Source of the DNA: an uncultured Burkholderiales bacterium
GTDB taxonomy: Bacteria > Pseudomonadota > Gammaproteobacteria > Burkholderiales > Burkholderiaceae_C
DNA length: 43,159 nucleotides
Direction of reading: 5' to 3'
Assembly (NCBI GenBank): GCA_903838355.1
Contig: CAILYC010000042.1
Location: forward strand, 1 to 43,159
Part shown: piece after piece, positions 41,674-43,072 of the stretch
Layout of the letters: the number at the start of each line of letters is the position of its first letter
Numbering within the stretch: position 1 is the stretch's first letter
Made by a program: the position numbers and the translations under genes
The notes under the pieces: generated by a model
What the model saw: the letters and a program-made list of their open reading frames with translations, nothing else
What the model was told of the DNA's origin: nothing
The model's database searches: none

Positions 41674-41969
41674 GGGCCTATAGCTCAGTTGGTTAGAGCA
41701 GAGGACTCATAGCGAAAGTTGTGCCTTATGTCGGGAAACTGCATAAGGGATGGTGTCAAATTCGGAGAAAGCTAAAGGCGGTTCTAATCAATTGTCCAAG
41801 CTAACGCCGAGCCAAGCTTCAGCATGAAAGTGCTGTTGAAGGTGTAGAGACTAGACGGCACCCATCTAAGTTGAGCAATCAATATGATGAAGGCATAGTC
41901 CAGGGAGTAGTGAAAGCTACACAAACCGGAATCCTTTGGTCCCAGGTTCGAGTCCTGGTGGGCCCACCA
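41674..41969 (+). tRNA. tRNA-Ile(CAU), interrupted by a group I intron
   Basis: Exons 41674-41710 and 41930-41969 join to a perfect 77-nt tRNA: acceptor GGGCCTA/TGGGCCC, D arm GCTCAGTTGGTTAGAGC, anticodon arm GAGGA-CTCATAA-TCCTT, T arm CCAGG-TTCGAGT-CCTGG, A73 and encoded CCA. The anticodon is CAT. The overall pattern matches minor isoleucine tRNA-Ile2, whose C34 is changed to lysidine by TilS, rather than a methionine tRNA. A TACAAT hexamer 20 bp upstream may be the -10 box. The gene works only if the intron is removed. Confidence 0.93.
41711..41929 (+). other. Group I self-splicing intron (IC3-like) in tRNA-Ile(CAU)
   Basis: A 219-nt intron lies between tRNA positions 36 and 37. P1 pairs exon CAT plus AGC with GTTGTG (41718-41723) over a GAAA loop, with the T-G pair at the splice site. 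P2 is CCTTATG/CATAAGG (41724-41730, 41742-41748). P3 is 41752-41757 with 41857-41862, P4 is TTCGG/CCGAG (41761-41765, 41807-41811), P7 is GACTA/TAGTC (41849-41853, 41896-41900), P8 has a GCAA loop, and P9 is GTAGT-GAAA-GCTAC (41907-41920). It ends in the required G (41929). The sequence strongly resembles the Azoarcus tRNA-Ile intron. There is no endonuclease gene inside. Confidence 0.95.
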
Positions 41970-42064
41970 AATTATTCCATTGAGCAAGCGGTGTTTAGTG
42001 TAAATTCTCACTAACATGCAACGGTTTTAGCTTGTCACACACTGCCTTCACCATCTTTAAGTGT

Positions 42065-42376
42065 TCATATGCCACTTAAAAGGCAACCCATGGCAGTTAC
42101 TATTTCGCTGGCGTGTTGATTTAAAGAGCAAACACTTTGCTTTAGATGTTTTTTATCCATTGCTTGAGCAAAAAAAGATATAAAAAGCATGTCTTCTCCC
42201 AAGACATTAAAAATAGGGGTTAAGTTTTTAGGACTATCAACTCTAGATTTATAACTCTTAAGTGGAACAGTCATTCTGGTTTTTAGAAAGCTTAACAAAT
42301 CTGACTGTACATCAATGACATAGGGATAAATATTCTTTGATTGTGGGATAGGATTCAAATAAACGTCGTATTGCAT
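42065..42376 (-). CDS. ccdB: CcdB-family gyrase-targeting toxin
   Basis: A 103-residue protein of the length and order of CcdB, which poisons DNA gyrase. It starts MQYDVYLNP, then has YPYVIDVQSDLLSFLKTRMTVPLKS, where VDVQSD and the R-x-V-I/VPL segment are shared with F-plasmid CcdB. It ends SGI, where F CcdB ends WGI; the Trp known to contact gyrase is replaced by Ser, though other CcdB proteins also lack it. The start is 4 bp after the antitoxin stop. Codon use is AT-rich, unlike the neighbours, consistent with transfer. Confidence 0.9.
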   Translation of the reverse strand: MQYDVYLNPIPQSKNIYPYVIDVQSDLLSFLKTRMTVPLKSYKSRVDSPKNLTPIFNVLGEDMLFISFFAQAMDKKHLKQSVCSLNQHASEIVTAMGCLLSGI

Positions 42377-42380
42377 TGAT

Positions 42381-42659
42381 TTACCAAATTCTTAGATCTT
42401 CGCACCAGTGACCTACGGATTCAAAATCTTGGTTCATCTCTTTAATCCAATCAGCGTATTTCTTTTCAAATTCAGATTTGTGCTTTCTCAAGTTCGAAGA
42501 CTTTCCCATCGCTTTAAGAGCTTCAAATTGATCTGCAGAAATAATTACAGTATCAATCCGACCATCCTTTTGGATGAAAACCGGTTCCTTTTTGGCGGCA
42601 CTACAAACACTGCCAAATCTATTTTTAGCTTCTGTTGCGGTAACAAGTATTTTGGTAAT
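42381..42659 (-). CDS. Putative hybrid Phd/YefM-CcdA antitoxin (apparent ATT start)
   Basis: The frame from 42659 gives 92 residues with no ATG before codon 51. Residues 4-49 read ILVTATEAKNRFGSVCSAAK...VFIQKDGRIDTVIISADQFEAL, the Phd/YefM DNA-binding fold (S/T-x-T-EAK-x-x-F, then an I-x-x-x-G-R/K strand). The tail KKYADWIKEMNQDFESVG, then HWCEDLRIW, instead matches the CcdA C-terminus (G-x-[FW]-x-[DE]-[DE]-x-R-x-W), the part that neutralises CcdB. The first codon where family alignment expects Met is ATT, right after an AAGG; ATA at 42650 is less likely. An ATT start, a mutated start or a sequence error are all possible. Confidence 0.75.
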   Translation of the reverse strand: MTKILVTATEAKNRFGSVCSAAKKEPVFIQKDGRIDTVIISADQFEALKAMGKSSNLRKHKSEFEKKYADWIKEMNQDFESVGHWCEDLRIW

Positions 42660-42667
42660 CCTTAGAA

Positions 42668-42692
42668 TATATTAGCTTTTTTAGCTAATATA
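42668..42692. promoter_or_regulatory. Perfect 10-bp inverted repeat upstream of the toxin-antitoxin genes
   Basis: TATATTAGCT (42668-42677), five T, AGCTAATATA (42683-42692), ending 8 bp from the antitoxin start. Such a site just upstream of a type II antitoxin gene is the usual place for the autoregulatory operator, and TATATT could also serve as a -10 box. Confidence 0.7.
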
Positions 42693-43042
42693 AATGTCGT
42701 GTCAAATCTAAATTTGCAAGTCAGTTGTCAATGTATGGTTGTATTTTTTAAACAATCTTCACCCCACCTAAAACGCAAGCTAAGGTGAAGGTATATTTAG
42801 CCCTAGTCTTTTTGTCACCCATTTCAATACCTCCATAACCCTATTTTCATCCAAAGTTAAGAAGTATGTTTTTCGGGGGCAAGGTCACTTTGGGTCCACT
42901 TCAGCATTGCATGGCTGCTTAAAGTAACGATTTATATGATCATAAACACCGCATTTTGGTGAAGCGCTTGGCTCAAGCGCTGTTCGCTAGGTTGAGTGCT
43001 ATGTCTTCATGTTGGGCAGTTAAACATCCAATGCATGTCGCG
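42693..43042. other. AT-rich stretch with no recognisable gene
   Basis: About 350 bp between the toxin-antitoxin operator and the tRNA-Arg promoter. I see no open frame with family similarity. It holds a perfect palindrome, AGCGCTTG-GCT-CAAGCGCT (42963-42981), and a piece (about 42865-42905) that might be a relic of a mobile element, but I cannot identify it. Confidence 0.5.
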
Positions 43043-43072
43043 TTGGATTGCTGGCGCAAAGAGTGTTATAAT
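43043..43072 (+). promoter_or_regulatory. Sigma-70 promoter of tRNA-Arg
   Basis: TTGGAT (43043-43048), an 18-bp spacer, and a consensus -10 TATAAT (43067-43072), with the mature tRNA 5' end 10 bp downstream. Spacing and position fit a strong tRNA promoter. Confidence 0.75.

Follow-up and report, generated by a model that had tools for sequence, protein, structure and literature searches.

A ccdB gene paired with a Phd/YefM-type antitoxin

The stretch of DNA that was analyzed, 43,159 nucleotides from an uncultured Burkholderiales bacterium (termed ‘the window’ below), carries on its minus strand a pair of small genes in which the antitoxin frame comes first and ccdB follows downstream, after a spacing of four bases (Table 1). 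The toxin had been called CcdB-like in a preliminary description of the sequence, and that assignment is borne out by a full-length match to the Pfam CcdB family (PF01845; 84.4 bits against a cut-off of 28.6, spanning profile positions 1-101 of 101); in a phmmer search of the PDB, the same protein retrieves the CcdB entries 2kmt (E 6.9e-11) and 1vub (E 0.0077).

The same description held that the partner is not a MetJ-fold CcdA, and that its first 50 or so residues are of the Phd/YefM type. Both statements agree with the profile searches: the head of the window antitoxin matches PF02604 (PhdYeFM_antitox; residues 6-50, 30.6 bits, cut-off 29.8) and TIGR01552 (26.3 bits, cut-off 20.8), and PF02604 is matched at E <= 0.001 by all 67 members of a family alignment (A2) that includes the window protein. 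The RHH head of CcdA, in turn, is absent from the window antitoxin, as judged by Pfam (no match to CcdA, PF07362, at E <= 1) and by a comparison of the head profile with a CcdA alignment (1.8%). Sequence searches of the PDB with the antitoxin returned chance hits only and no useful structure, and the PADLOC defence library gave one weak match and nothing judged meaningful. The arrangement is that of a type II system, with a small antitoxin gene directly 5′ of the toxin gene in a pair that is conserved among relatives (72 of 80 loci; see below).

Table 1. Positions of the genes and associated features in the window
Feature	Position	Strand	Remarks
ccdB toxin gene	42065..42376	(-)	complete ORF, 103 aa, Pfam CcdB match
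Antitoxin gene frame	42381..42659	(-)	92 codons (42384-42659) and stop (42381-42383)
Phd/YefM head, residues 6-50	42510..42644	(-)	PF02604 and TIGR01552 matches
CcdA-like tail, about residues 59-92	42384..42485	(-)	family-level profile comparison with CcdA
Final ten antitoxin residues	42384..42413	(-)	GHWCEDLRIW
Perfect inverted repeat TATATTAGCT-AAAAA-AGCTAATATA	42668..42692	(-)	candidate operator directly upstream of antitoxin
Candidate promoter TTGACA-16-TAAAAA	42678..42705	(-)	by eye; -10 within palindrome
Group I intron	41698..41922	(+)	Rfam Intron_gpI, 52.2 bits (cut-off 50)

The C-terminal tail and its relationship to CcdA

The preliminary description had also aligned the last ten residues of the antitoxin with the end of the F-plasmid CcdA protein. 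The sequence and the register of that alignment stand, but its significance does not when the window protein is taken by itself: against a profile built from 54 classical CcdA tails (with Phd-type sequences kept out), the window tail alone scores 5.4 bits, in the right register, with an E value of 0.84 for 1000 sequences. The argument from ten residues, insufficient on its own, was therefore replaced by a comparison of family profiles, and it is on the family that the case for the tail rests.

For that comparison, the CcdA-only tail profile was run against the 60 Phd-type antitoxins retained when 92 loci were filtered by text (the filter dropped 32 loci, some of which are no Phd-CcdB pairs, and the count of pairs given below uses a separate check on 80 loci). 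The profile matches the C-terminal end of all 60, in 44 cases at 10 bits or more (best 21.6, median 12.4, lowest 2.8). Among 12,000 shuffled tails, 1463 gave any reported match and a single one reached 10 bits, at 15.4, while 30 other Phd antitoxins, drawn from a survey of PF02604 and without CcdB in any of their loci, score -0.5 or less (19 of them with any match). When profiles were compared with each other by hhalign, the Phd-type tails matched classical CcdA at 94.7% (E 6.4e-8) over 34 columns; with a set of 24 rows the corresponding values were 95.5% and a score of 39.2, again over 34 columns, against a best score of 19.1 from 200 column shuffles. The tails of other Phd antitoxins gave 0.1% in the same comparison, and the Phd head the low value already quoted. 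The 34 columns align without gaps and stay in register to the C-terminal end.

Individual proteins differ in how far they reveal this resemblance. A Pfam CcdA match at E <= 0.001 is found in 13 of the 67 members of alignment A2, the other 54 falling short, and a Pfam run on nine proteins placed two above both cut-offs (29.8 bits for PF02604 and 22.4 for CcdA), four below the CcdA cut-off with a match, and three without any. Proteins from the loci L280 (34.2 bits for PF02604 and 24.2 for CcdA), L347 (30.7 and 25.2) and L355 (32.2 and 23.7) lie above both. In the PDB, the Phd-type tail profile found unrelated chains and no CcdA at E <= 10. The preliminary description had allowed that homologous antitoxins might expose the resemblance as chance; the homologues favour a relationship with CcdA, and over some 34 residues the likeness exceeds what shuffled and natural controls produce. 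As judged by sequence, then, the C-terminal tail of CcdA, of the type that binds CcdB, is present at the level of the family.

Conservation of the pair

A protein search returned 168 antitoxin relatives at E <= 0.001 (at least 120 of them listed; among the matches listed, most are 89 residues long) and 11 relatives of the toxin at E <= 1e-5. From a scan of genome contigs, which yielded 163 antitoxin relatives, the best 80 were kept as loci; where their titles name a genus or order it belongs to Burkholderiales, and the remaining titles read Comamonadaceae, Burkholderiaceae, beta proteobacterium or Pseudomonadota. A survey of genomes for the same pair had been proposed at the outset, and in these best 80 of 163 loci CcdB begins directly beside the antitoxin, downstream of it, in 72 (with weak partial toxins in L016, L067 and L078). 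Among the eight exceptions, four loci end 28-70 bases past the antitoxin (L015, L041, L052, L079), in L030 and L093 the CcdB hit is partial and falls outside the range that was set, and two are without a CcdB hit (L056, and L038, where the DNA still begins like a CcdB gene). A second sample, of 150 genomes from the family of the window, contains 24 full-length antitoxin matches, one being the window itself, and 22 of the other 23 loci have a CcdB hit (partial in L307 and L342; none in L351). A search of phage records gave one distant CcdB hit.

Matches confined to the N-terminal part of the antitoxin behave differently. Of 398 genomes from across the phylum, 54 have a match; it is full-length in four, all from the family of the window and including it, and elsewhere it ends by residue 75, mostly near residues 50-57. 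No CcdB hit was found in any of eleven such phylum loci that were fetched. Six N-terminal-only loci were fetched from the family sample as well: five (L358, L359, L360, L362, L363) have neither CcdB nor a match to the tail, and the sixth, L361, is the second Phd fusion described below. Together with the change of tail with toxin in Extensimonas (below), these loci make it highly improbable that the tail, conserved as it is throughout the main family, is a general extension of this branch of Phd antitoxins unrelated to the choice of CcdB.

State of the window copy and its surroundings

ATG, GTG and TTG are all absent from the usual start of the antitoxin in the window copy, which may because of this be weakly expressed or decaying. 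It could be a decaying remnant altogether, in which the toxin is intact and the antitoxin is poorly translated or represented only by a tail peptide; an internal ATG would indeed yield a tail-only product of 42 residues, and the toxins of the relatives L016, L030, L038, L056 and L093 are broken or partial. However, the frame of the head is open, with 98% identity to a relative among the matches listed, rare start codons exist, and among the close relatives fetched L015 also lacks a standard start (L003 and L016 have ATG), so that this state has persisted or works. Decay is therefore an unlikely description of the window copy, and since it concerns expression of that copy, it is compatible with the chimeric origin that is favored below for the family.

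The group I intron in the window (Table 1) splits, by eye, a tRNA with a CAT anticodon, which ARAGORN does not report. The end of the toxin gene lies about 100 bases past the 3′ end of this split tRNA. Copies of the intron, 74-86% identical, are present in other genomes of the genus; four match Intron_gpI at E <= 0.01, two of them above the cut-off. When window positions 42027-43053 are compared with locus L322 of genome G020, the distance from the region of the intron-split tRNA to a tRNA-Arg is 1025 bases in the window and 247 in G020. The antitoxin was not found in genome G020, which presents an empty site at the place occupied by the window module. In L015 (2786-2879) and L016 (2795-2879) a partial intron end and the 3′ half of the tRNA (87-88%) lie directly upstream of the antitoxin promoter, in an arrangement that differs from that of the window, and HigB-like genes seem, by eye, to be near the module.

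A palindrome that accompanies the head

Directly upstream of the window antitoxin lies an inverted repeat with arms of 10 bases, the score of which was unmatched in 60 shuffles (Table 1). A consensus promoter scan picked a different pair of boxes in the same stretch from the one chosen by eye, and the number of such pairs is no higher than in shuffles. In the family at large, the strict palindrome TRGCTAAAATRGCYA precedes 65 of 70 Phd-CcdB loci, its core ending 20-33 bases before the start codon and its TAAAAT placed like a -10 box. The loci without the strict core are the window, with its perfect repeat around an AAAAA middle, and L031, L061, L072 and L080, three of which have near variants. 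The strict form occurs in none of 155 RHH CcdA-CcdB loci and in none of 30 other Phd loci.

A relaxed form of the palindrome (background 0.04 per 70 bases) is found in 67 of the 70 Phd-CcdB loci, in 4 of the 155 RHH loci and in none of the 30 other Phd loci. It also occurs in 7 of 10 tail-less head relatives from across the phylum (L314, with an internal stop, was left out), and the genes 3′ of these relatives are, by eye, ParE/RelE toxins, a PIN protein, restriction-modification genes or nothing clear. Its presence in Phd-CcdB loci and in tail-less head relatives, and its rarity with RHH and absence with other Phd antitoxins, means that the operator-like site goes with the head; the palindrome is conserved, specific to the window type of head, and a candidate operator. 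No covariation of its halves was seen beyond that expected from column make-up.

L316 and L319, Phd-head relatives with the same palindrome, adjoin genes that look by eye like restriction-modification genes. Two contigs of the IMG/VR viral collection (L303, L304) hold the same Phd-CcdB pair together with the palindrome (CcdB 129 bits); in L305 the tail is degenerate and CcdB gave no hit.

Natural exchanges of tail, toxin and head

The module occupies the same place in Extensimonas vulgaris (L069), E. perlucida (L058) and Extensimonas sp. H3M7-6 (L089). Between L069 and L089, a stretch of 3.2 kb with 92.5% identity reaches as far as base 219 of the antitoxin gene, where the similarity ends; it resumes roughly 22 bases before the toxin gene finishes and then extends for 2.5 kb. 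The heads of L069 and L058 are 98% and 97% identical to that of L089, the tails 50% and 45%, and the toxins 46% and 44%, and L069 has about 160 extra bases between antitoxin and toxin that are absent from L058 and L089. Head and palindrome being nearly constant, it is tail and toxin that differ together: this one Extensimonas locus carries two alleles, with a break inside the antitoxin gene, at the tail.

The reverse exchange is seen in L361, from another genome of the family of the window, in which a Phd head (44.3 bits) is followed by a tail ending ...GSFADEHSTL (CcdA 16.2 bits, below cut-off). When its CcdB is ranked among 234 toxins, the eight nearest, at up to 75% identity, are partners of RHH CcdAs with the same ...GSFADEHSTL type of tail, and the first partner of a Phd-type antitoxin comes at rank 28. 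L361 is a second Phd fusion, separate from that of the main family. In L169 a DUF2281-like head (21.7 bits, below the cut-off of 26.5) stands over the ...GSFADEHSTL type of tail, and the CcdBs closest to its own again belong with RHH CcdAs that end in this type of tail, the first Phd-type toxin ranking 56th. Across 70 loci, the partial correlation of tail identity with toxin identity, given the head, is 0.72 (reached in 0 of 2000 permutations), and that of head with toxin, given the tail, is 0.55, as expected because inheritance is mostly joint.

The domain swap that the preliminary description had offered as the simplest reading is in keeping with both kinds of event, tail and toxin being exchanged under a nearly constant head in Extensimonas, and the head being exchanged while tail type and toxin clade stay constant. 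The same exchanges bear on the idea that the tail is not homologous to that of CcdA, and that a similar peptide for binding CcdB arose convergently in a Phd antitoxin that had acquired this toxin. The shortness of the similar region, the insignificance of the window tail by itself and the failure of the tail profile to retrieve CcdA from the PDB would all suit such an origin. It is nonetheless improbable in view of the ungapped columns that keep register to the last residue, of the Extensimonas exchange, and of a tail type that L361 has in common with the RHH CcdAs of its toxin’s nearest relatives. As far as sequences can establish it, tails pass down together with their toxins, and the promoter palindrome accompanies the head (‘tail follows toxin, operator follows head’).

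Other heads over CcdA-like tails

In 300 genomes of the order, CcdB was found at 67 places, of which 64 were fetched (the window’s own and two others being left out) and 63 classed by partner: 57 are RHH, 3 Phd, 2 ‘other’ and 1 none. For 84 further loci from the 398-genome phylum sample, the partners are RHH in 69, Phd in 2, ‘other’ in 11 and none in 2. These classes rest on purpose-made profiles, and ‘other’ is not a count of new heads, since RHH antitoxins or outside-family Phd heads may fall under it (by eye, it includes the RHH proteins of L243, L250, L264 and L295). Three of the Phd loci (in G167, G933 and G946) belong to the family of the window, and two (G372, G454) to another family of the order; their small number in both samples marks Phd as an infrequent partner of CcdB, met here in Burkholderiales.

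Two loci next to CcdB, L180 and L289, have a CcdA-like tail under a head that looks AbrB-like, by eye only; the heads have no match in Pfam, and a related protein (P0134) has none in NCBIfam. A protein search with the L289 antitoxin gave 1006 relatives at E <= 0.001. The CcdA tail profile matches all 120 of those listed (best 34.7, median 24.5, lowest 12.8 bits), and among the matches listed at least one is named a CcdA family antitoxin by NCBI. This type is present in 6 of the 150 family genomes. A clear CcdB lies downstream at four of the loci (77.7-98.4 bits), among them L180 and L289 again; of the other two, one has pieces of CcdB and one has none. L282 and L285 are partners of CcdB with a CcdA-like tail (13.5 and 17.6 bits) and no RHH or Phd head in the profiles used (L282 has no Pfam match at E <= 1), and are possibly tail-only or decayed antitoxins.

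Interpretation

The locus is very probably a type II toxin-antitoxin operon, the toxin of which is CcdB and the antitoxin of which is a chimera of a Phd/YefM head and a CcdA-related tail. By analogy with the known families, a dimer of the head would bind the palindrome and repress the operon, the tail would wrap CcdB and keep it off DNA gyrase, and loss of the labile antitoxin would leave free CcdB to poison gyrase. The 41 C-terminal residues of the mini-F CcdA protein are reported to be enough to antagonise CcdB (Bernard and Couturier 1991). Recombination inside the antitoxin gene, at the boundary of head and tail, would have brought a Phd head in front of a CcdA tail and ccdB, presumably in that direction, and such recombination appears to have happened more than once.

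What the hybrid suggests is that tails travel with their toxins and can be placed on different DNA-binding heads. The CcdB-binding tail and ccdB probably form one travelling cassette, from which the head is split off at a recombination point inside the antitoxin gene; the heads found over its tails likely comprise RHH, Phd (in at least two fusions), a DUF2281/VapB-like helix domain and the AbrB-looking head (in about 1000 proteins). If tail and ccdB do travel as one cassette, then cells could bring a gyrase poison under a different operator while staying immune to it. The exchange can be resolved inside one gene, where the same locus with nearly the same head has tail and toxin swapped, and the reverse case exists as well. 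That tail follows toxin and operator follows head is directly testable with natural pairs, and natural chimeras are at hand for work on CcdB neutralisation and operon control. Annotation based on the head can hide CcdB modules: among the matches listed, the antitoxin relatives are named Phd/YefM, YafN-component or prevent-host-death antitoxins.

Comparison with known systems

With CcdA-CcdB of the F plasmid (PF07362-PF01845) the module shares its toxin family, gene order and tail pattern, and presumably the gyrase target, whereas the head of CcdA is RHH and that of the window type is Phd/YefM, with another palindrome. With Phd-Doc and YefM-YoeB it shares a PF02604 head and palindromes directly upstream (as seen by eye in the 30 control Phd loci), but those systems carry toxins other than CcdB, and the tails of the 30 other Phd antitoxins are unrelated to that of the window type. 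A modular Phd repressor/antitoxin, with separate regions for DNA and toxin, was reportedly described by Smith and Magnuson in 2004; the separation is alike, while the tail of Phd is said to serve Doc. The clans CL0132 and CL0057, which matter for what follows, we take to be those of the RHH and AbrB proteins.

In the parts of the following papers that were consulted, CcdB-clan toxins are placed with antitoxins of clans CL0132 or CL0057 (PMC7354431), the CcdB cluster of TASmania is restricted to CcdA (98.79%; PMC6504116), YefM is paired with YoeB (PMC4803016), and the idea that toxin and antitoxin families mix is accepted (review, PMC3920263). No explicit name for a Phd-CcdB pair was found in the openly accessible literature searched, and no such pair was met in the consulted parts of PMC2701414, PMC6504116, PMC4226512, PMC12654330, PMC3920263, PMC7354431 and PMC4803016. 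Mixing of families is thus already known, and the Phd-CcdB pair with a CcdA tail was not met in the literature searched.

Two described systems come near it. In Alphaproteobacteria, PHD is found with SMa0917, a predicted PemK/MazF-like mRNA interferase (Makarova et al. 2009, PMC2701414), so that a Phd antitoxin adjoins a toxin of the CcdB/MazF superfamily there as well; SMa0917, however, is not CcdB, the consulted part of that paper does not mention a CcdA tail, and the partners that it names for PHD are Fic/Doc, PIN, RelE and SMa0917, CcdB not being among them. TasA-TasB, described in the consulted part of PMC1626090 as a composite mazE-doc system, likewise joins an antitoxin and a toxin of different families, and differs from the module described here in which families these are.
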